A stretch of 64,000 nt of DNA from Thermosipho affectus (GCF_001990485.1 NZ_LBFC01000007.1:1-64000); one strand, 5' to 3'. Positions 46,748 through 58,231 are shown, counted from the stretch's first letter. Numbers and translations are program-made. Notes: a model not told the origin generated them from the sequence alone.

Positions 46748-46767
46748 TTATTAAGGAGGTGTTTAAA

Positions 46768-47019
46768 ATGGATATCAAAAAAATAGGAGGATATGGATAT
46801 ATTCAAGGAATTAAAAGGGAACATATAGAAAAAATAAATAGAGAGAAGTTTAAACAATCAGATTTTTCCTCAGCACTTGAGATAAAAAAACTGTTAGAAG
46901 ATTCAAAAAAATTACCAGAAGTAAGAGAAAAATTGGTTTTAGAATTAAAAGAAGCTATTAAAAACGGGACTTTTAAAATTGATGCCGAGAAAATTGCAAA
47001 ATCTATTTTGGGAGGATAA
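46768..47019 (+). CDS. flgM: Anti-sigma-28 factor FlgM
   Basis: Holds the flagellar sigma factor FliA (sigma-28) inactive until the hook is finished. The ATG at 46768 follows AAGGAGGTG. The 83-residue protein starts MDIKKIGGYGY and has the typical C-terminal helices with SSALEIKKLLEDSKKLPEVREKLVLELKEAIKNGTFKIDAEKIAKSIL, the FlgM family pattern. It heads flgN-flgK-flgL, the usual order in Thermotogales and Firmicutes. Confidence 0.92.
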   Translation: MDIKKIGGYGYIQGIKREHIEKINREKFKQSDFSSALEIKKLLEDSKKLPEVREKLVLELKEAIKNGTFKIDAEKIAKSILGG

Positions 47020-47021
47020 AA

Positions 47022-47456
47022 ATGAAAGAAACAATAAAAAAACAAACAGAATTAATTGAAAAAATTACCTCTTCATTTAAAAGCGCACAAACTGCGCTTA
47101 TAAAAAAAGAAATACAAGATTTATCCAAGAACATAGCAATGGTTGAAGAATATTCCCTAGAATTTGAAAAATTAGAAGAATTATTATTAAAAGAACTCAA
47201 TAATCTAGGATACTCTTCTATAACAAATTATATTAATTCAACAAATGATAAAGAGATGTCCATTTTACTTGCCACATTTATGGAAAAACTAAATGAACTT
47301 TCCATAGTTATGTCAAACTTTAAAGAAATGCTGGATTTTGAAAATAATTACTTTGATTTTGTCAAATCGTTATTTTCAAATACATCTCAAACATCTACGT
47401 ATTCGAAGACTGGATACGAAAAAGTAAACTCTAGTTTTTTTAACAAATCATACTAG
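47022..47456 (+). CDS. flgN: FlgN family flagellar export chaperone
   Basis: Chaperone for the hook-filament junction proteins FlgK and FlgL. The 144-residue protein is almost entirely helical (KQTELIEKITSSFKSAQTALIKKEIQDLSKNIAMVEEYSLEFEKLEELLLKEL), with a Ser/Thr-rich tail, as in FlgN. Sequence signals in this family are weak, so position between flgM and flgK carries much of the evidence. The start lies 2 bases after flgM. Confidence 0.85.
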   Translation: MKETIKKQTELIEKITSSFKSAQTALIKKEIQDLSKNIAMVEEYSLEFEKLEELLLKELNNLGYSSITNYINSTNDKEMSILLATFMEKLNELSIVMSNFKEMLDFENNYFDFVKSLFSNTSQTSTYSKTGYEKVNSSFFNKSY

Positions 47457-47467
47457 GGAGTGATTGA

Positions 47468-50008
47468 ATGCCAGATATTAGCCTTTTCGGTGCTTTAAAT
47501 ACAGGACTTTTGGGTATTTATACAAGCAAACTTGCAATGAATGTTGTATCACATAATATAGCAAATGCAAATACACCTGGATTTTCAAGACAGGTACCTA
47601 TTATTCGTACAATGCCACCCATTCCCGCAACTACTTTAACACAACCGTCTATACCATTACAGATCGGAACAGGCTCAAAAGTAAAAGACATCCAAAGGAT
47701 TAGGGATAAATTTTTGGATATTCAATATAGACAGGTAAATAACAAATACAACTATTGGGACTCGATAACTTCAAATTTACATTTTGTCGAACAACTCTTT
47801 GCAGAACCAGGTGATTCTGGAATAAGATATTTATTTGATTCAATGTGGTCAGGTATGGAGGAAATAATAACTGATCCAACTAATAGTGCTGCGAAACGGG
47901 AACTTGTAAGTAGAGCTGAAGAATTTGTCAAAAACATAAAAGATTTATACTTACGATTAGAACAACTCAGAGAAGACTTAGACTTTGAAATTACCCAAAG
48001 AGTTGATCAAATAAATTCTATGGTAGAAAGACTTGCCGATATAAATTCAAAAGTACGTCTATCAATGGCACTAAAATCCACTCCCAATGACCTGTTGGAC
48101 GAAAGAGATAGGATATTAGATGACCTTTCAAAGCTTGCAGATATTTACTACACAGAAGATGCCTCAGGACAAATCACGTTGAGGATAGGAGATCAAATAG
48201 TCCTTACGGGAAGTGATATCAATAAATTAAGAGCACTTGAAAGGCCATATGGAAAGGGTTTTAAAGAAATATTTGTAAGAAATTCAAAAGTTGATATACA
48301 CGATGGAAGTCTAAAAGCAGCTATAGATTTGAGGGATAAAACGATAGTAAAGTACATGAACAGATTAGATGAATTTGTACTATATCTAACCGACAAATTC
48401 AATCTAATCCATAGAGATGGGTTCAACAAAGACGGTAGTGTAACTGGTCTAGACTTTTTCTCACAAATAGAAACAGATAACATTGAAAATTCCGTTTTAT
48501 TTAGATTAGCTGGTACCAAGAGAGTTGAAGGTGGACCAATAAAATATATTTCAGGTATGTCAAATAGAAATAATGTAAGTGATATAACCACAAAACAATT
48601 CATTGATCAAGGTTCCATAGTATTTTTTGACGGTTTTACAAATGTTAGTGCTATATCTGTAAATGCCGGAGACACAATCCAAGACTTTATAAATTCCGTT
48701 TCTGCTTCTGGACTTTGGTTTTCATTTGAAACTGCAATGCACAACAGTGCAACATATTTACTCAGAATGGTTGGAAGCACAAATCTAAAAGATACTTTGG
48801 CACTAGATTTTAACGGAAATATGTTCAATACAATGGGATTTGACACAAAAGATGTCAATATATTCGTAATAAATCAATCTGATTTTAACGTTGAAAATGG
48901 TAATTACAAAATAAATATCAACGGTATCGAAGCCAACTTAAACATTACTTCAGGTTACACATTAAATGACCTTGCAAATGATTTAAACACAAACTTTTCC
49001 ACCGAAATAAAGGCCTTTGTACACAACAATAAACTTTTAATACTTCCAACTAAAAACAATGAATTTAACCTAAATAGAATAGATTTGCAAGACCCCGATG
49101 GACTGTTCACACAGGCAAATATTCACATTGAAACGTACAAGGCATTGGACACAAGTAAAGAAACACTTGATAACATATTAGACAGAACAGATCCATTTAA
49201 AATAACTATAGGAGCAACTGAAATAGAAATTGATCCAACACAACTAACTCTAAAAGACTTTGTGAAAAAACTAAATGAATCGGGAACAGGAATTCTCTTT
49301 GATATAACACCACACAACAAGGTAGTAATTAGGGGTACAAGATCAATGAACTTTAAAATAGACAAAACTATTAAAGGACCAGAAGAATTATTTGTAAAAT
49401 TGGGATTTATAGATCCAGATAGCGATCCTACAAATGATTGGAACGAAAAATATATATTTCTAAATCCTTTCGATGCTCCAAAAACACTTAGAGAGAAGTT
49501 TTCAAAGGCAGACACACTCTTTGTGGACAAAATAATAACAAATGAACCTTTTAGATTTGTGGAAAAACTAAAAGTGAATACAACTGTTTCTTCCAACCCT
49601 GAAACTATAGCCGTTGACTTTGGAATCATAGAAGATAATACAAATTGGGACGCAAAAGTATTCAATCCAACAGGTCAGGCAAATACCAAAATAATGGAAA
49701 TGCTTTCTTCAATGAGATTTGAAAAAATACTAAACGATGGTCGAGAGAGTTTTGCAGAATATCTTGGGGGTATAGTTGCCGAAATGGGTGTGGAAGGTGA
49801 GACTGCAATGAAAATGAAAAACAATACAGATATAGTAATGAAAGACATAAGCAATGAACGTGAAAGGGTAAAAGGTGTCTCATTAGATGAAGAAATGGCA
49901 AATATGATTAAGTTTCAACATGCTTTTAACGCATCTGCTCGTGTTATGACAGCAGTAGATGAAATGATAGGTAGAGTGATTGACAGACTCGGTGTTGTAG
50001 GAAGATAG
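47468..50008 (+). CDS. flgK: Flagellar hook-associated protein FlgK
   Basis: Junction protein HAP1 between hook and filament. The N-terminus LFGALNTGLLGIYTSKLAMNVVSHNIANANTPGFSRQ is diagnostic, and the C-terminal helix (NERERVKGVSLDEEMANMIKFQHAFNASARVMTAVDEMIGRVIDRLG) completes the D0 coiled coil. At 846 residues it is longer than FlgK of enteric bacteria (about 550); the extra length is in the middle domain (roughly 330-680), which would face outward. It follows flgN by 11 bases. Confidence 0.96.
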   Translation: MPDISLFGALNTGLLGIYTSKLAMNVVSHNIANANTPGFSRQVPIIRTMPPIPATTLTQPSIPLQIGTGSKVKDIQRIRDKFLDIQYRQVNNKYNYWDSITSNLHFVEQLFAEPGDSGIRYLFDSMWSGMEEIITDPTNSAAKRELVSRAEEFVKNIKDLYLRLEQLREDLDFEITQRVDQINSMVERLADINSKVRLSMALKSTPNDLLDERDRILDDLSKLADIYYTEDASGQITLRIGDQIVLTGSDINKLRALERPYGKGFKEIFVRNSKVDIHDGSLKAAIDLRDKTIVKYMNRLDEFVLYLTDKFNLIHRDGFNKDGSVTGLDFFSQIETDNIENSVLFRLAGTKRVEGGPIKYISGMSNRNNVSDITTKQFIDQGSIVFFDGFTNVSAISVNAGDTIQDFINSVSASGLWFSFETAMHNSATYLLRMVGSTNLKDTLALDFNGNMFNTMGFDTKDVNIFVINQSDFNVENGNYKININGIEANLNITSGYTLNDLANDLNTNFSTEIKAFVHNNKLLILPTKNNEFNLNRIDLQDPDGLFTQANIHIETYKALDTSKETLDNILDRTDPFKITIGATEIEIDPTQLTLKDFVKKLNESGTGILFDITPHNKVVIRGTRSMNFKIDKTIKGPEELFVKLGFIDPDSDPTNDWNEKYIFLNPFDAPKTLREKFSKADTLFVDKIITNEPFRFVEKLKVNTTVSSNPETIAVDFGIIEDNTNWDAKVFNPTGQANTKIMEMLSSMRFEKILNDGRESFAEYLGGIVAEMGVEGETAMKMKNNTDIVMKDISNERERVKGVSLDEEMANMIKFQHAFNASARVMTAVDEMIGRVIDRLGVVGR

Positions 50009-50020
50009 GAGGGGATTTAG

Positions 50021-50905
50021 ATGAGAATAACAAATGGAATGATAAACGAAAGAACATTGTTTAATATACAAAAGAGTTTGTATAGAATTAGCAAATTACA
50101 CGATAAATTATCATCTGGTAAAGAGGTATCATATCCAAGTGACGATGCAGTAGTTGCTACACGCTCTTCAAACATATCAAGTAGATTAAGAGAATTAAAG
50201 CAATTCAAAAGAAACGTTGAACACACTCAAAATTTTGTCAATATATATGATTCCACCATCCAAGAATTGACAAATGTCTACCATAGAATAAAAGAATTAA
50301 TTGTAAGGGGTGCAAATGGAGTTAACGATGTAGCCGAAAGAGAGTCAATAGCAGAAGAATTAAAAGAGCTAAAAAACCATTTAGAAGATATAGCAAATAC
50401 TCAATTGGGAGGAGAATACATATTTGGTGGTGCAAGATCAGATTTAAAACCCGTGGAAAATGGAAAGATCCAAACACCACCAGAGGCAAATGTTAAAAGA
50501 AAAGTAAACGCACTTGGATTTACCATTGAATACGGTATCACAGTATACGATGTTTTTAAGCTTGATACGGGAAAAGATGCATTTACCGTAATCGATGACG
50601 CAATAAATGCTTTAAAAGAGGGAAATTCAAAAAAACTTTCAAATATAACACTCAAAGAAGTAAATAAACTGGAAACATCAACAATGGATGTATTTGCACA
50701 GATAGGTGCAAACACAAGAACATTAGAATTAATAAGTACAAGGATAACGGATATCGATACATTCATGACAGAGTATCTCTCAAAAGAACAAGATGCAGAT
50801 TTAACAAAGGTACTAACTGATCTTTCTATGCAACAATCTGTGCTGCAAGCCGCCTTAAAATCTGCAGCACAAGTATTACAAAAAACTTTGGTTGATTTTG
50901 TATGA
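50021..50905 (+). CDS. flgL: Flagellar hook-associated protein FlgL
   Basis: Junction protein HAP3 that starts the filament. The 294-residue protein has the flagellin-like N-terminal coiled coil (MRITNGMINERTLFNIQKSLYRISKLHDKLSSGKEVSYPSDDAV) and the C-terminal helix with LTKVLTDLSMQQSVLQAALKSAAQVLQKTLVDFV. A middle NTQLGGEYIFGGARSDLKPV is typical. It overlaps the downstream methyltransferase by 4 bases. Confidence 0.95.
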   Translation: MRITNGMINERTLFNIQKSLYRISKLHDKLSSGKEVSYPSDDAVVATRSSNISSRLRELKQFKRNVEHTQNFVNIYDSTIQELTNVYHRIKELIVRGANGVNDVAERESIAEELKELKNHLEDIANTQLGGEYIFGGARSDLKPVENGKIQTPPEANVKRKVNALGFTIEYGITVYDVFKLDTGKDAFTVIDDAINALKEGNSKKLSNITLKEVNKLETSTMDVFAQIGANTRTLELISTRITDIDTFMTEYLSKEQDADLTKVLTDLSMQQSVLQAALKSAAQVLQKTLVDFV

Positions 50906-51555
50906 TAAAATTGCCACCATTTGACAAAAATTTTGGGAAAGAAATAAAAACAATAGATATAGAAGGTCATAAACCGACGCACGCGTCGGTTTTGTTGCTT
51001 TGGTATTCAAAACCTACAAAAAATGTTAAAAAAGTATGTGAACTTGGCTCTGGAACGGGTTTTGTCTCATTTGGATTAGAAAAATACTACAAATTAGAGG
51101 TATTGGGGCTAGAAATATTAAAAGAACTCTACGATAATGCATTAAAGGCTATTTACATAAACAAAGCGAAAAAAGTAAATTTTATGCATATTGATGTAAA
51201 AGATGTAAAAAAACACCTAAAAGCGGAATCATTCGACATGGTGGTGTTTAATCCCCCATTTCACTTTTCCTCCACATCAAATAAAATTATCAGGGAAAAA
51301 TCCAGAAAAGGATCCCTAAGTATCCTTCAAGACTTTGTTGTTTCTGCTTCCTTTTTGTTAAAAAACAAAGGGCTATTTGTAACAGTTATTTCTCCATATG
51401 TTCTCCCTGTATTTATGAATCTCCTCACATCAAATAAATTAACACCTCAGCAAATGTGCATCGCATATGGGAAAAAAGCAGAATTAGTTTTAATACGTGG
51501 AAGAAAAAACGGTGGCAATCATCTTGAAATCGATCCACCTGTATTTTTGTATTAA
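50902..51555 (+). CDS. TrmN6-like N6-adenine methyltransferase
   Basis: 217 residues, SAM-dependent, related to the family that modifies A37 of tRNA-Val. SAM-binding VCELGSGTGFVSFGLEKYY (about 46) and the catalytic NPPF in MVVFNPPFHFSS (about 115) are clear. Length is a little shorter than E. coli TrmN6. The start ATGA overlaps flgL, and codons 23-30 (KPTHASVLL) are written over a stable hairpin followed by T-rich bases, a likely terminator for the flagellar operon. Confidence 0.85.
   Translation: MIKLPPFDKNFGKEIKTIDIEGHKPTHASVLLLWYSKPTKNVKKVCELGSGTGFVSFGLEKYYKLEVLGLEILKELYDNALKAIYINKAKKVNFMHIDVKDVKKHLKAESFDMVVFNPPFHFSSTSNKIIREKSRKGSLSILQDFVVSASFLLKNKGLFVTVISPYVLPVFMNLLTSNKLTPQQMCIAYGKKAELVLIRGRKNGGNHLEIDPPVFLY
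50971..51000 (+). terminator. Terminator-like hairpin inside the methyltransferase gene
   Basis: AAACCGACG-CACG-CGTCGGTTT (50971-50992) is a 9-base-pair stem with a 4-base loop, GC-rich for this genome, followed by TGTTGCTTTGG. It starts about 65 bases after the end of flgL, inside codons 24-31 of the next gene. It is a good terminator candidate even though it is in coding sequence. Confidence 0.55.
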
Positions 51556-51587: not shown

Positions 51588-53516
51588 ATGAAAATCCTTA
51601 CAATTTTATCGATTTTTTTGATTGTTTTTTACATATTTACGGTTATATTTTTCCCATTTATAGAATTTTTTGAATTAAAAATAATGGATTTATTTTATAG
51701 AACACGGGGTACAATAAAGATAAATCCAGATATCGTTATTGTAGGTATTGATGAATATTCCCTTACATCTCTTGAAGCGCAAAATGATGTATGGCCATGG
51801 TCTCGTTATCACTACGGCAAAGTAATTAAAAACATATTTAAAGCAGGTGCCAAGGTGGTTCTTTTTGATATATCCTTTACAGAAGAAGACGAAGTAAACC
51901 CAAAATATGACAACTATCTTGCAAGTATACTTTCGGTATATAGGAATGTAGTCCTGGGGAGTTACTTAATTAATGAAAAAGACACCTATAAAAAATACAA
52001 CGAAGAAATCAAAAAAAAGCTTGAAAAAAATATAACTTACCTTAACTATACTTACAAAATGAAAAATTTCAAAAACCTTGACTACTTAACTCCCATTCAA
52101 ATATATAAAGTAAGACCACCTATATTAAAATTCTCATCTCTTGTTCCATCCGCTACCTATGAGATAGGAGAAATAGATATAGACGGTGTTGTACGTAGTA
52201 TTCCTTTATTTTTCAAAGAAAATTGGTCAATGGAAAGAGGACTATCCTCCGGGTTTCTTCCACATATGGATGTTCTAGCAGTTGGTCTTTACAAAAACTC
52301 AAATCTGAAAAACTTGATAGTTGACTTTAAAGAAAGAAAGGTAGAATTAAATAACCTAACCATTCCATTTGACTCAAATGGACTTTTTAGATTATTCTAC
52401 TATGGTGATAAAATATTCCCTGAAATACCGTTTTACGATGTAGAAACGGGAAAGTTTGATCCAAAACTTTTTAAAGATAAGATAGTTATAATTGGTTATA
52501 CCGCAACGGCTAAAGGTCTATACGATCTTAGAATAACACCTTTTTCAAACAACACACCTGGAGTATTCATTCATGCAACTGCAATACAAAATATGATTAA
52601 TAAAGATACTTTAAATAGAATACCTATTTGGGGAAAGTTAGTTATTCTTATTTTTACACTAATATTTGTCTTATTATTCTCAAGATCTAAAAATATAAAG
52701 ATAAATTTAATTTCATTCCTTTCAATCCCATTAATATTAATAATTTCCTACGTCTTTTTTCTCAACAAAATATACATAGATTGTTTTTATCCCATTGTTT
52801 CAAGCTTAATAATTTCAACCACAAGCATATCCAAAAACCTTATAAAGGAAAACAGGGAAAAGAAAAAAATGAAGGAGTATCTATACAGATATGTTCCAGA
52901 CAGTGTTGCAGATTTTTTGGTAAAAAAAGGTAAAATAGAATTAGGAGGAGAAGAAAAAAATATAGTCGTACTTTTCTCAGATATAAAGGGATTCACTGCT
53001 TTATCAGAGAAATTGGAAGCATCAAAACTTGTCGAAATATTAAATAATTATCTTACCAAAATGAGTAATATAATTAGAAATAAATACCAAGGTACTATAG
53101 ATAAATTTGTTGGTGATGCAATAATGGCTATATTTGGAGCACCTGTAGAATACGGGAATGAAGTAGAACGTGCTTTAAAATGCGCCCTTGACATGAGAAA
53201 AGAACTTGAAGCGTTTAACAAAGAATACAACCTTAATCTTGATAGTGGTATAGGTATCCATATAGGTCCTGCAATCGTGGGAAATATTGGTGCACCATTT
53301 AGAATGGATTACACTTCAATTGGAGATACGGTAAACACTTGTTCAAGGATAGAACACCTTACACGCGATGTCCCCGCTGGTATAATTGTTTCTGAAGATA
53401 TATACAACCTTTCAAAAGAAAAGTTTGAATTTAAATATATAGGCCAATTTAAAGTAAAGGGAAAAAGTCTTCTGTTAAAAATATATGAGTTAAAGGGTGA
53501 AAAACATGAAACTTAA
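51588..53516 (+). CDS. CHASE2-domain class III adenylate cyclase
   Basis: Membrane protein predicted to make cAMP in response to an outside signal. The 642-residue protein has a membrane helix (about 4-28), a CHASE2 sensor region (about 30-335: IVGIDEYSLTSLEAQNDVWPWSRYHYGKVI is typical), three membrane helices (about 345-420) and a class III cyclase domain (about 450-635). Metal-binding Asp residues are in FSDIKGF (about 462) and FVGDAIMAIFGAP (about 508); the purine-site Lys lies in TIDKFVGD and the matching Thr in DYTSIGDTVN, pointing to ATP rather than GTP. It overlaps the next gene by 11 bases. Confidence 0.93.
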   Translation: MKILTILSIFLIVFYIFTVIFFPFIEFFELKIMDLFYRTRGTIKINPDIVIVGIDEYSLTSLEAQNDVWPWSRYHYGKVIKNIFKAGAKVVLFDISFTEEDEVNPKYDNYLASILSVYRNVVLGSYLINEKDTYKKYNEEIKKKLEKNITYLNYTYKMKNFKNLDYLTPIQIYKVRPPILKFSSLVPSATYEIGEIDIDGVVRSIPLFFKENWSMERGLSSGFLPHMDVLAVGLYKNSNLKNLIVDFKERKVELNNLTIPFDSNGLFRLFYYGDKIFPEIPFYDVETGKFDPKLFKDKIVIIGYTATAKGLYDLRITPFSNNTPGVFIHATAIQNMINKDTLNRIPIWGKLVILIFTLIFVLLFSRSKNIKINLISFLSIPLILIISYVFFLNKIYIDCFYPIVSSLIISTTSISKNLIKENREKKKMKEYLYRYVPDSVADFLVKKGKIELGGEEKNIVVLFSDIKGFTALSEKLEASKLVEILNNYLTKMSNIIRNKYQGTIDKFVGDAIMAIFGAPVEYGNEVERALKCALDMRKELEAFNKEYNLNLDSGIGIHIGPAIVGNIGAPFRMDYTSIGDTVNTCSRIEHLTRDVPAGIIVSEDIYNLSKEKFEFKYIGQFKVKGKSLLLKIYELKGEKHET

Positions 53517-54402
53517 AAACATTTCTATAGATAACAAAGGTGAAAAAGGAAAAAAATTGCTTTTAAGGTTAAATATAAAAAAACATACAGTGGAATTTTA
53601 CGAATCCATAGATATTGATGCTATTTACTTACTTTCAAATTATTTTGAAATTTTTGATCCAGAATTTATAACTCCAGTACTTCCAAAATTGCTAAATTCC
53701 AATAACTTAGATGAATCTTTAAAAATTCTTAAAGATTTTTGGCATCTTAAAGAATTAAAATTAACAGACAAGGTAAAGGAAATAAAGTTTGAAAACAACA
53801 TATTTGAATATCCGCTTAAAAGTAAGGCCTCAGGGGAACTTGGTACATTGATATTTTATAGTGTAACTCCAGAATTTGTACTCAACTTCCTTTCAATATC
53901 AGATTCTATTACTTCAATACTCGAAGGATTAATAATCCAAAAAAGAATGTCCATTATTCTATCAGACACCATAGATGCTTTATCGGAAGCCCTAGCCAAA
54001 AGAAGAAACAAAAATCAAGAAAAAAATAAAAAAATAGAAAAAAATATAATCTCACTAGGAAAAAAATTTGGATTCAATATGGATTTGTTAAAACTTTGTG
54101 CAAAAATATACGACATAGGTATGATTGGCATACCGGATCAACAAGAAGATAGTGGAGAAAAACACGTAAAATACGGTTATGAAATATTAAGCAAAATAGA
54201 AGATATTCCAAAAGAATTGCTAGATGCAGTACTATTTCATCACGAAAAACTTGACGGAAGTGGTCCTTTAAAGGTGAAAGATGTACCGTTAATAGCACAG
54301 ATTATCGGGATTGTAATTGAAGTCTTTGAAAATAATGTGCCAATTGAAAGTTTATCTGGAAAATATGATCCACGACTTTTAAAGGAGCTAAAACATGGAT
54401 AA
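53506..54402 (+). CDS. Degenerate HD-GYP-like domain protein
   Basis: 298 residues from the ATG 53506, which has AAAGGGTGA upstream. The C-terminal half (about 150-298) aligns by eye with HD-GYP phosphodiesterases: CAKIYDIGMIGIPD at about 200 takes the place of HDIGKIGIPD, with Tyr for the first His and Met for the Lys, while FHHEKLDGSGP at about 243 keeps HHE-DGSG but lacks the GYP proline-tyrosine. Loss of metal-binding residues suggests a non-catalytic sensor or partner. The N-terminal half is unfamiliar. It overlaps the cyclase and DUF3307 genes. Confidence 0.75.
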   Translation: MKLKNISIDNKGEKGKKLLLRLNIKKHTVEFYESIDIDAIYLLSNYFEIFDPEFITPVLPKLLNSNNLDESLKILKDFWHLKELKLTDKVKEIKFENNIFEYPLKSKASGELGTLIFYSVTPEFVLNFLSISDSITSILEGLIIQKRMSIILSDTIDALSEALAKRRNKNQEKNKKIEKNIISLGKKFGFNMDLLKLCAKIYDIGMIGIPDQQEDSGEKHVKYGYEILSKIEDIPKELLDAVLFHHEKLDGSGPLKVKDVPLIAQIIGIVIEVFENNVPIESLSGKYDPRLLKELKHG

Positions 54403-55024
54403 ATTTATTCATTTGTTCCTTGGGCACTTATTTGGAGATTACGTTTTTCAAAACAAATGGATTGCAACTAAAAAGCCTAGAGAATTTAAAGTATTACTCA
54501 TCCATATTTTAATCATCTTTTTAAGCCAAACATTTTTCTATCTTGGAAAAAATTTCAATTTAAAATCACTTTACTTGATAGGTATTCTATCTGTTATACA
54601 TTTTTTTATAGACTTTATAAAATTTGTAAATAACAAAAAAAAGTTTTTCAGCTCACACAAATATTATTTGATAGATCAAATGATGCACATTCTATCGATT
54701 ATAACAATCGCATTTTTTATACCATCCACTAGCTTTTTTATTCCAAAAAACATATCGGTAATCTTAAGTTCTTCTGTATTTAATGCCTATCTTCTAGGAA
54801 TCTATTCTTTCTTCCTCAAAAATGATACCGCATACAAAAGAGATATTGAAGGTTATATAGTTAGAGGATTTTGTCCTGTAGTATATCTTTTTGGGCCTGT
54901 TTATTATTCTATATACACTCTAATTACAGGAGTGTATTCAATATACTTTCTAAAAAAACATCAAGTAATTTCATGGGCATTGTCAATAACCCTGACAATA
55001 GTATTTATGGAGGTGATGTTATGA
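54395..55024 (+). CDS. DUF3307 family membrane protein
   Basis: 209 residues with about six hydrophobic segments. The N-terminal HLFLGHLFGDYVFQNKWIATKKP matches the DUF3307 pattern (H-x-GD-x-Q-x-W-x-K), a family with no firm function. A second polar motif, DFIKFVNNKKKFFSSHKYYLIDQMMHI, is in the middle and carries the conserved His/Asp residues. It overlaps the gene before by 8 bases and the FecR gene after by 4 bases, so all are co-translated. Confidence 0.8.
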   Translation: MDKFIHLFLGHLFGDYVFQNKWIATKKPREFKVLLIHILIIFLSQTFFYLGKNFNLKSLYLIGILSVIHFFIDFIKFVNNKKKFFSSHKYYLIDQMMHILSIITIAFFIPSTSFFIPKNISVILSSSVFNAYLLGIYSFFLKNDTAYKRDIEGYIVRGFCPVVYLFGPVYYSIYTLITGVYSIYFLKKHQVISWALSITLTIVFMEVML

Positions 55025-57003
55025 AAAAAATAATTTTTCTATTACTATTTTTTTCCTCTCTTATGTTCTCAAAGCTAATCGTAATCCCAGATGCAACCCA
55101 AGTTTATACAGGTGGAGAAGTTGGGATAAAGATTTCTTCAGATGAAAAGGTATTTGTCGATTTTAATCTAGGAGGTTTTGACGATCCTGATATTATCTTC
55201 GATGGTACAGATAAAGATTACGTAAAATACATTGCTCCATTAGTTGAAGGAAGCGACACAATAATTTTTAAAACTTCAAAGGAAACTGCAACTCTAACAA
55301 TATATTTTGTAGAAAAAAGAGAAGATTTAAAAACGGCTGTAGCAAAAGTCAGTAATTTTTCGGGAAATGTTGCAATAAAAAAGAAAGATATATGGGAAGC
55401 TATCACAAACAACACAATTATTGAAGAAGGCGATGAAATACTTACAATGGAAAATTCTTTTGTTGAAATATCTTTCCCAGACGGAAGCATTTCAAGAATA
55501 CTTGAAAATTCTCAAGTTTTAGTGGAAAAACTACGATATGATGGTAAAGTAGATATTGTCCTAAACCTAAAAAAAGGAGAAAATTACAACATAATCCAAA
55601 AGTTTCTAACTTCTGGCTCAAACTTTAAGGTTAAAACATCCAGCGTTACAGCAGGTGTAAGAGGTACAAAATTTGCAGTAATTAATAAAGATGGAAAGAT
55701 TAATATTACTACATTTGAAGGGACTGTGTTTGCATATTTTAAAAACGGAAAAATACTCCCCGTAAAAAGTGGATTCTCTGTTTCTTCATTCGCAAAACCT
55801 ACAAAAAATACCATACCTGAAAGTGAATTTGAACCAAAAAAAGAAACTATTGAAAAACCAAAAGGTAAAGCAGAAAGCATCACCGAAAATGCGGAAATAC
55901 CACCAATCTCAATTGAACCTGTGAATAAGAATAAAACAAATTATATGGTTTATTCTATTGCACCAGAATTTAACATTGGTTCTGTAACCCTTGGAATAGG
56001 TTTTACCGCATATTCCACAGAAGTAGGGGGAAATCTATATTATGGACTCCCATCTTCAAACCCAAGTACCAATATAATAAACGCATTTACATTGAATTCC
56101 GTTGCTTTTTCTTTGTTTGGAGCAAAATTTAGATATGGAAACATGATCCCAATTTCACTTGCAATGGGATTTACCACAAGAGATTTCTACAACTTCAGCG
56201 CAAAAACTTTTGATTTTGCGTACGAAAATGAAACAATGTATTTATTTATACACCTTCCATATGAACTTTCAAAGATTTATCCCATTGAATTTACAAATTC
56301 TGATTCAATCTTTATGGGAGAATTTGCCATAAAATTTGATCTTCCATTTATCGGCAAATCAAAACTAGGTATATCCACCGTATACGATAAAGATGCAAGT
56401 CCCATGTATGTTGAAAACAATTCCACTCCTATAACCTTGGCATACTCTTTCTTTGCCAAAAAAACACTAATCGATAACATAGACTTAGGTGTTGAACTTT
56501 CAATGGAAAAAGGAGAAAAAAGTACATATGGTGCGTTTGCGGGAATATACGGAAAACTAAGTTTGTTAAATATTACAGGAGGTTTCTATTATCATTTTAA
56601 AGACTTTATCCCGTACTACTTTAACCGAAATTATGCAAAATTAAAGTATAATAATAAACTTCCCGCTATGAATTCAAATGCGGCCTTTGGATATCTTTTT
56701 GGATTTGATTTCGATTCAAATTACGCTACAGGAAGATTCTATCTATACGGATTTGATCCAAAACTTGAGGGCGAGGGAAGGATAATAGTTCCTGCAATAG
56801 GTAAATTCAGTGGTCTATTTATATCAGCTTACTACTATGATCCCACACCATTTATCGATGGATTGTTAAGTAATGACACAAATTCATATATAAAAATAAC
56901 ATATCCATTAATTGGAGAGTCTTTTACCGGTGGAATACTATTTGAATGGAATGGCACCGAATGGGTTGAAAATGTAATCTTTGGAACTGAAATTGGGAGG
57001 TGA
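55021..57003 (+). CDS. Exported FecR-domain protein with beta-barrel-like C-terminus
   Basis: The ATG 55021 (MKKIIFLLLFFSSLMFS, signal peptide) follows GGAGGTGATG; the longer frame upstream is shadow. The 660-residue protein has a beta-rich N-terminal domain, a FecR domain at about 110-260 (SFVEISFPDGSISRILENSQVLVEKL, KTSSVTAGVRGTKFAV), a Pro/Glu/Lys linker (about 265-305) and a ~350-residue C-terminus of alternating strands (YGNMIPISLAMGFTTRDFYNFS and similar), which looks like an outer membrane beta barrel. It does not end in a canonical final aromatic residue. It overlaps the HD-GYP gene by start context. Confidence 0.85.
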   Translation: MKKIIFLLLFFSSLMFSKLIVIPDATQVYTGGEVGIKISSDEKVFVDFNLGGFDDPDIIFDGTDKDYVKYIAPLVEGSDTIIFKTSKETATLTIYFVEKREDLKTAVAKVSNFSGNVAIKKKDIWEAITNNTIIEEGDEILTMENSFVEISFPDGSISRILENSQVLVEKLRYDGKVDIVLNLKKGENYNIIQKFLTSGSNFKVKTSSVTAGVRGTKFAVINKDGKINITTFEGTVFAYFKNGKILPVKSGFSVSSFAKPTKNTIPESEFEPKKETIEKPKGKAESITENAEIPPISIEPVNKNKTNYMVYSIAPEFNIGSVTLGIGFTAYSTEVGGNLYYGLPSSNPSTNIINAFTLNSVAFSLFGAKFRYGNMIPISLAMGFTTRDFYNFSAKTFDFAYENETMYLFIHLPYELSKIYPIEFTNSDSIFMGEFAIKFDLPFIGKSKLGISTVYDKDASPMYVENNSTPITLAYSFFAKKTLIDNIDLGVELSMEKGEKSTYGAFAGIYGKLSLLNITGGFYYHFKDFIPYYFNRNYAKLKYNNKLPAMNSNAAFGYLFGFDFDSNYATGRFYLYGFDPKLEGEGRIIVPAIGKFSGLFISAYYYDPTPFIDGLLSNDTNSYIKITYPLIGESFTGGILFEWNGTEWVENVIFGTEIGR

Positions 57004-57007
57004 TTAC

Positions 57008-58216
57008 TTGTATGCACCATATTGGATAATAGGAATTGAATATAAAGATAGGTTTGTTGGTAAAAAAAGTAGATATACATATAAAATAAACAATATAGTA
57101 TTCCATCTTTTGGGAAAAGATTTTAACGCAAGCGTTTTAAAGATATTATCTAACGAAGAAATAGAAAATATCAAAGTTTTAGACGATTTTGATAGAATAC
57201 CATACATTGCTGCTAATTTAAATAGCAGTATAAGACTTTCTACGTTACTTAGAAATATCCAAGAAAAAATCTGCAATCTAATAGATGCAGAAGCAGCATC
57301 TGTATTACTTTACAAAGAAGATCACCTTGAATTTCTTTCCACTGTAGGAAAAGCAAGTGGAAAAATAGAAAGTATCCCCGTACCTATGGAATCAATAGCA
57401 GGTACTATATTTTTAAAAGAAAAAACGTTAGTATTTAACGATATTACTAAAGCTCCACACTTTAAAGGGGTAGATAAAGCGTCAAAATTCAAAACAGAGA
57501 ATATAGTAGGAGCCCCCATATATTCTGGGGATAAAAAGGTCGGAGTGCTTGAGATATTAAATAAAAAAGATGGATTCTCGCAAAAAGACGCGGAAATCAT
57601 AGAAAAATTTGCAAAGTTAATAGGAAAAAAACTGCTCAGTACATGGGAACTTGAAAAAATGAGTAATCTATTTAAAAGTATCATTCTATCATTTGTGACA
57701 ATGATAGATAAAAGAGATAAATATACTCACACACATTCAAATAACGTTGCAAAAATTTCAAGATTAATAGGAGAAAAAATGGGGTTATCAGAAAACATCC
57801 TTGAACAACTCGAATATTCAGCAATTCTTCATGATGTTGGGAAAATAGGAATCCCCGATTCTATATTATTAAAGCAAGGAAATCTAACAGATGAAGAATA
57901 TAAAATAATACAATCCCATACAATTATTGGAGCAGAAATTTTATCTAAAATCAGGTACACAAATAAAGATATAATTTCTGGTGCCCTTGAACATCACGAA
58001 AGATTGGATGGTTCAGGTTATCCTTGTGGAAAAAAAGATATAAGCTTATTTGGAAGAATTATAGCAATTGTAGATGTATACGATGCACTCACTGCCAAAA
58101 GACCGTATAAGGAGCCGTGGCCCAAAGAAAAAGTTATATCCATATTAAAAAAAGACAGTGAAAAAGGGAAATTTGACAAAAAAATTGTTAAAATACTAGA
58201 AGAAATAGCCCCTTAA
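57008..58216 (+). CDS. GAF-HD-GYP phosphodiesterase (c-di-GMP specific family)
   Basis: Soluble protein of 402 residues from the TTG 57008 (MYAPYWIIGIEY), chosen because GGGAGGTGATTAC precedes it. A short N-terminal region (1-70) leads to a GAF domain (about 75-215, with VGAPIYSGDKKVGVLEILNKKDGFS) and an HD-GYP domain: HTHSNNVAKISRL, ILHDVGKIGIPDSIL (about 273) and EHHERLDGSGYPCGK (about 328), all metal-binding residues intact. Family members break down c-di-GMP. There is no GGDEF protein in the window. Ends at a terminator overlapping its stop. Confidence 0.95.
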   Translation: MYAPYWIIGIEYKDRFVGKKSRYTYKINNIVFHLLGKDFNASVLKILSNEEIENIKVLDDFDRIPYIAANLNSSIRLSTLLRNIQEKICNLIDAEAASVLLYKEDHLEFLSTVGKASGKIESIPVPMESIAGTIFLKEKTLVFNDITKAPHFKGVDKASKFKTENIVGAPIYSGDKKVGVLEILNKKDGFSQKDAEIIEKFAKLIGKKLLSTWELEKMSNLFKSIILSFVTMIDKRDKYTHTHSNNVAKISRLIGEKMGLSENILEQLEYSAILHDVGKIGIPDSILLKQGNLTDEEYKIIQSHTIIGAEILSKIRYTNKDIISGALEHHERLDGSGYPCGKKDISLFGRIIAIVDVYDALTAKRPYKEPWPKEKVISILKKDSEKGKFDKKIVKILEEIAP

Positions 58217-58231
58217 TAGGGGCTATTTTTT
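58204..58231. terminator. Terminator shared by the HD-GYP gene and tRNA-Gln
   Basis: AATAGCCCC-TTAATA-GGGGCTATT, a 9-base-pair stem that includes the HD-GYP stop codon, is followed on the + strand by TTTT and on the - strand by TTTCTTC. The + strand T run abuts the CCA end of the convergent tRNA. Confidence 0.8.

Follow-up and report, generated by a model that had tools for sequence, protein, structure and literature searches.

In the 64,000-nucleotide (nt) stretch of Thermosipho affectus DNA analysed here (GCF_001990485.1, NZ_LBFC01000007.1:1-64000; hereafter the window), five genes on the plus strand at 51588-58216 encode, in this order, a CHASE2 adenylate cyclase, a degenerate HD-domain protein (HD1), a DUF3307 membrane protein, an exported FecR protein and a GAF-HD-GYP protein (HD2); the open reading frames and their strand were confirmed. 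Gene order and distribution across genomes indicate that these genes are a real, conserved operon. We lean towards the view that it is an envelope-signalling operon, coupling an outer-membrane receptor to cyclic AMP (cAMP), with an HD-GYP pair and DUF3307 as further components. The FecR-CHASE2 core is already known elsewhere, and the DUF3307/HD-GYP set is the unreported part.

The possibility, raised in a preliminary description of the locus, that the five genes do not co-occur in other genomes was checked in 103 Thermotogota genomes, by reading the neighbourhoods of DUF3307 for gene order. DUF3307 was detected in 37 of them, and the complete order CHASE2-HD1-DUF3307-FecR-HD2 was found in 27, including the present one (one gene is split in two of the other 26). 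Protein identity among these 27 is about 27-80% and the flanks are unrelated; retention of the order under such conditions argues that the cluster is more than chance. Four more loci are incomplete, being interrupted by contig ends. An independent CHASE2 search returned the same genomes as DUF3307 with two exceptions: the module of G098 is cut off by contig ends, and G077 holds remnants only. The DUF3307 matches lacking CHASE2 (G009 and G027) are both weak. Joint presence and absence of the two families across the 103 genomes gave a Fisher p of about 1e-26, uncorrected for kinship. In 25 genomes the pairwise distances of the five proteins track one another (correlations of 0.84-0.95), and rows of the CHASE2 tree fall together by family; this fits inheritance as a unit, but since the comparison contains no outside control gene the correlation may reflect just shared species history. 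Conserved order, joint presence and absence, and the recurrence in other phyla described below strongly support the earlier claim that the genes belong together. In G077, from a sister genus without the module, CHASE2 remnants lie in two frames (L131:7452-8169), which looks like recent module loss, and the module of the Marinitoga lauensis LG1 record (L077:6820-14007) is broken by several frameshifts, through sequencing error or decay.

From hydropathy, the cyclase has an N-terminal transmembrane (TM) segment and further TM segments at about 342-400; its CHASE2 domain is predicted to be periplasmic, and its class III cyclase domain spans 457-627. Residues D465, D510, K506, T576, N583 and R587 are retained in the aligned copies. 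Among them are the features expected of class III: the two metal-binding aspartates (D465, D510), the base-selecting lysine (K506) and the transition-state asparagine and arginine (N583, R587). The pairing of Lys with Thr at K506/T576 suggests class IIIb. The family PF00211 matched exactly once in each of 35 of the 103 genomes, the match being the CHASE2 cyclase every time, while the remaining 68 had no match; by this profile, the CHASE2 protein is the sole class III cyclase found in the sampled Thermotogota, a result that is new here. Domains binding cyclic nucleotide monophosphates (cNMP; PF00027) have a median of 5 matches per genome with the module versus 1 without, and the excess holds inside families f1, f3 and f10 (p 2.5e-4, 3.7e-4 and 4.9e-5, uncorrected for kinship). 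Candidate cAMP receptors include a protein of about 410 amino acids (aa) with two cNMP domains, found in relatives; provisionally, and among the matches listed, frames in two size ranges, about 403-436 aa and 105-113 aa, are confined to module-bearing genomes. The present genome holds two overlapping genes of 105 and 238 aa (L172:1429-2449), in each of which a cNMP-binding domain is the one Pfam domain found; that of the 238-aa candidate scores below the Pfam cut-off.

The FecR protein consists of an N-terminal hydrophobic segment (residues 2-25), a FecR/PupR-like domain (about 135-275), a linker and a C-terminal barrel (about 286-656). Its AlphaFold2 model was built on nine sequences (predicted local distance difference test score, pLDDT, 78; predicted template modelling score 0.48). 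In this model the FecR domain matches the PupR signalling domain 6ovk (Z 16.6, 2.5 Å, 134 residues), and the barrel resembles in fold class the outer-membrane barrels of AlgE and OprD-type porins (Z 12-14, root-mean-square deviation near 7 Å). The protein is thereby modelled as a PupR-like signalling domain fused to an outer-membrane-type barrel, an arrangement that is new here; the label "exported FecR/beta-barrel-like" in the preliminary description is borne out by the Pfam FecR match and these barrel matches. A sequence search of the PDB returned no relative. Only the segment 2-25 lies ahead of the exported part, with no cytoplasmic anti-sigma part, and among the five genes, to which that search was confined, there is neither an extracytoplasmic function sigma factor nor a TonB-dependent receptor. 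Standalone paralogues of both halves exist: a 298-aa FecR-domain protein in the present genome (L129:5973-6869), and a 392-aa barrel without a Pfam family (L128:6953-8131), relatives of which occur also in module-less genomes.

HD1 and HD2 have no TM segments by hydropathy and form separate clades (support 100/99 and 96/94). All scored positions of HD2, namely the HD dyad, further His/Asp ligands and the GYP motif, are retained in 28/28 copies, and its PDB relative is 4mcw (E 2e-48). We predict that HD2 is an intact HD-GYP phosphodiesterase acting on cyclic di-GMP (c-di-GMP). In HD1 the dyad His is replaced by Y, F, A or I in all 31 copies, while three other His are retained in all 31; their retention despite the loss of the dyad His suggests a kept binding site rather than decay, and HD1 is probably a conserved pseudo-phosphodiesterase, working as a sensor or regulator and not as an enzyme. 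The designations "degenerate HD" and "active-looking GAF-HD-GYP" given to the two proteins at the outset agree with these motif counts. In the f6 genomes an intact HD-GYP occupies the HD1 position. We considered whether the GAF domain of HD2 might bind cAMP with an NKFDE-type motif and rejected the idea: N, K, F and D are mostly there, unlike the last Glu, and such a pattern occurs widely among GAF domains.

The DUF3307 protein matches its profile at 73.4 bits (curated cut-off 23), contains several TM segments by hydropathy and is modelled by AlphaFold2 as all helical (pLDDT 90). Across the aligned phyla ten polar residues are invariant, including a His/Asp/Gln/Lys set. Foldseek against the PDB returned nothing below E 4, and VIA-align matches (helices of TRPV, Kv and AcrB, Z <6; PgpB, 4.1) were too weak and were not used. 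In the literature searched, which was covered in part, DUF3307 is mentioned only in a phage genome description.

The profile search was extended to 287 genomes outside Thermotogota. The combination reaches beyond the Thermotogales: related four-gene and partial forms were found in other phyla. The order FecR-CHASE2-HD-GYP-DUF3307 is present in G179 and G321 and then in further genomes of the same phylum, which we take to be probably Dictyoglomota. Two genomes (G285 and G140) have the order CHASE2, membrane protein, DUF3307, HD-GYP, the membrane protein of G285 matching DUF2254, and in G222 a CHASE2 cyclase gene is followed by DUF3307. Elsewhere DUF3307 has a cNMP-binding PAS kinase on one side and, on the other, a frame of 1444 aa that contains a cyclase domain and tetratricopeptide repeats (TPRs) (G259, L104:7399-13447), follows a cNMP-binding gene (G173 and G314), or is paired with SatD (two other genomes). 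DUF3307 stands next to a cyclase or cNMP-binding gene in at least 5 of the 16 non-Thermotogota families read, a count made on part of the neighbours and without a background rate. The module HD-GYPs of other phyla form one group (support 97/96). A narrow single-pattern contig scan matched Thermotogota loci only and is uninformative on spread. In two genomes of family f82 (L102:2780-4374 and L110:5076-6670), DUF3307 adjoins a 296-aa cNMP-binding protein, downstream of a gene for a T2SSE (PilT-type) ATPase. DUF3307, a family to which the preliminary description had given no role, keeps recurring next to genes for cyclases or cNMP-binding proteins. From this gene linkage, DUF3307 may tentatively be regarded as a membrane part of cAMP signalling in bacteria that has so far escaped notice; it could be an enzyme of the membrane with cAMP as its substrate, or a regulator dedicated to the cyclase. 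We hold this reading less probable than its opposite.

Several known systems share parts of this arrangement. A Campylobacterota cluster comprises a CHASE2 adenylate cyclase, a FecR-domain outer-membrane protein, a cAMP phosphodiesterase and a TPR protein, and all cyclases of that phylum carry CHASE2 (PMC9239204). The T. affectus cluster likewise pairs its CHASE2 cyclase with a FecR-domain outer-membrane protein (here by Pfam and model) and a predicted phosphodiesterase, and its cyclase too carries CHASE2; compared by description, it differs in that two HD-GYP-type proteins, one of them dead, stand where the other cluster is said to have a cAMP phosphodiesterase, DUF3307 is added, and none of the five proteins is a TPR protein by Pfam. 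In Sinorhizobium meliloti the outer-membrane barrel NsrA acts upstream of the CHASE2 cyclases CyaD1, CyaD2 and CyaK, and sensing raises cAMP (PMC13001267); common to the two systems is an outer-membrane barrel, here predicted, linked to CHASE2 cyclases, whereas neither HD-GYP nor DUF3307, both present here, is reported there. FecR genes also adjoin CHASE2 cyclases on plasmids of Sinorhizobium, Ruegeria and Methylocystis. With FecR/PupR cell-surface signalling (PMC7186176) the present system shares the periplasmic signalling fold, but its FecR protein is exported and barrel-fused rather than an inner-membrane anti-sigma protein, and no sigma factor is among the five. In the Burkholderia BiofilmReg operon (PMC5192318) a FecR-domain protein also adjoins a CHASE2 sensor; there, however, the CHASE2 domain belongs to a histidine kinase accompanied by a response regulator, the FecR protein carries LysM, and cyclase, HD-GYP and DUF3307 are missing. 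The SatD-DUF3307 pair involves the same family, PF11750, with no cyclase, FecR or HD alongside at two loci by the module profiles. In the literature searched, again with partial coverage, no paper describes a FecR-CHASE2 set with DUF3307 and HD-GYP.

We propose the following model. The C-terminal barrel would anchor the FecR protein in the outer membrane with its PupR/FecR-type domain facing the periplasm. A signal at the outer membrane would make this domain act on CHASE2, the periplasmic domain of the cyclase in the inner membrane, so setting cAMP synthesis, and cAMP would be read by cNMP-binding proteins encoded outside the operon. HD2 would lower c-di-GMP; the catalytically dead HD1 would probably bind c-di-GMP or HD2 and tune either HD2 or the cyclase, and DUF3307 would be an inner-membrane partner of the cyclase. 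The flow suggested earlier, from FecR through CHASE2 to cAMP with the HD proteins adjusting c-di-GMP, fits the anatomy and the precedents, except that HD1 is probably a regulator and not an enzyme. The model is built directly on the domains and their order, their joint presence and absence, the motifs kept or lost, the predicted folds and the correlation with cNMP genes; its molecular contacts, activities, signal and output we infer. Several points weigh against it. The FecR-CHASE2 contact is proposed by analogy alone, and a deviation near 7 Å places the barrel in a fold class and leaves its type unfixed. In one genome (G071, genus g2, L036) the CHASE2 gene points the opposite way to its four partners. 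Two f6 genomes retain just CHASE2-HD-DUF3307 and have no FecR gene next to them (one contig ends shortly after). The within-family cNMP excess carries no kinship correction, and family f9 has several cNMP domains yet no module. A shared transcript with the upstream flagellar genes is also possible.

The identity of the nucleotide handled by the HD proteins bears on a different account, a closed cAMP loop in which cAMP, not c-di-GMP, is the substrate of HD2 or of both HD proteins, and one operon encodes its synthesis and its breakdown. The HD superfamily includes cAMP phosphodiesterases. The phosphodiesterase of the Campylobacterota CHASE2-FecR clusters is stated to act on cAMP (PMC9239204). 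The full HD-GYP motif set of HD2 and its nearest solved relatives, which cleave c-di-GMP or cyclic GMP-AMP, speak for the other substrate, and we consider the closed loop unlikely. It is slightly less likely still that DUF3307, instead of the HD proteins, is the missing loop enzyme, a membrane protein degrading or otherwise handling cAMP: the position of its gene next to those for cyclases or cNMP-binding proteins, in Thermotogota and in five lineages besides, and its invariant polar set would suit such a role, but the family also occurs with SatD and in other cyclase-free contexts, no fold match hints at chemistry, and the linkage lacks a background rate. Improbable as well is a motility regulator of the present genus, co-transcribed with flgM-flgL. 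Co-directional flagellar genes do end 32 nt upstream by way of a methyltransferase gene, a link kept in the genus and in one sister genus (G085), but flanks vary between families, flagellar genes lying upstream only there, and a strong hairpin in the methyltransferase gene separates the two sets. Packing without common function, although common in small genomes, is very improbable given an order retained across families despite changed flanks, loss of the whole set together, leaving a CHASE2 remnant in one sister genus, and recurrence in rearranged order in other phyla.

An envelope-signalling operon would single out the only class III cyclase of the sampled Thermotogota and link it to a probable outer-membrane receptor. 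It predicts in which Thermotogota genomes cAMP is in use and which cNMP-binding proteins are its possible readers, and gives DUF3307 a testable cAMP-signalling context. The conserved operon also links cAMP with HD-GYP proteins, and its source organisms probably have heat-stable proteins that lend themselves to structural work.

The five-gene layout, overlaps and 4-base gap given in the preliminary description were recovered from the reading frames, Pfam names and junctions in the DNA (Table 1). Pfam E-values are 1.6e-50 (CHASE2) and 8.8e-29 (Guanylate_cyc) for the cyclase, 5.4e-08 (HD, degenerate) for HD1, 2.2e-20 (DUF3307), 6.7e-16 (FecR), and 2.5e-13 (GAF) and 1.9e-35 (HD_5) for HD2. Read directly in the DNA, the HD1 ATG (53506) overlaps the cyclase gene end (53516) by 11 nt, with an alternative GTG start at 53497. 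The next overlaps are 8 nt (HD1 end 54402, DUF3307 start 54395) and 4 nt (ATGA; DUF3307 end 55024, FecR start 55021). After the FecR gene end (57003) a 4-nt gap precedes the TTG start of HD2 (57008), which is preceded by GGGAGGTGA.

Table 1. Features of the module and its surroundings (positions in the window).
Feature	Position	Strand	Description and basis
CHASE2 adenylate cyclase	51588..53516	+	642 aa; Pfam, TM segments, catalytic residues
HD1	53506..54402	+	298 aa; degenerate HD-GYP relative, cytoplasmic, probable pseudo-phosphodiesterase; Pfam HD, motifs, own clade 100/99
DUF3307 (PF11750) integral membrane protein	54395..55024	+	209 aa; Pfam, AlphaFold2, invariant polar residues
Exported FecR protein	55021..57003	+	660 aa; Pfam, AlphaFold2 model, structural matches
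HD2	57008..58216	+	402 aa; GAF + HD-GYP, motifs intact, cytoplasmic; Pfam, motifs, PDB relative 4mcw
Terminator-like hairpin + T-run	58210..58222	+	closes cluster, at end of last gene; consensus scan only
flgM-flgN-flgK-flgL-methyltransferase	46759..51555	+	upstream context, outside module; names by similarity, first four without Pfam test

Promoter-like sites were at chance level (47 found versus 45 expected), and NCBIfam gave no informative name. The 32-nt gap noted above runs from the end of the flagellar/methyltransferase set (51555) to the cyclase gene (51588). Within the start of the methyltransferase frame lies a strong hairpin at 50971-50992 (9 pairs, 5 of them G-C) followed by TGTTGCTTTG; placed between the flagellar genes and the module, it is a possible attenuator. 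Beyond the terminal hairpin of the cluster a tRNA-Gln is encoded on the opposite strand, the tRNA being the sole Rfam match.

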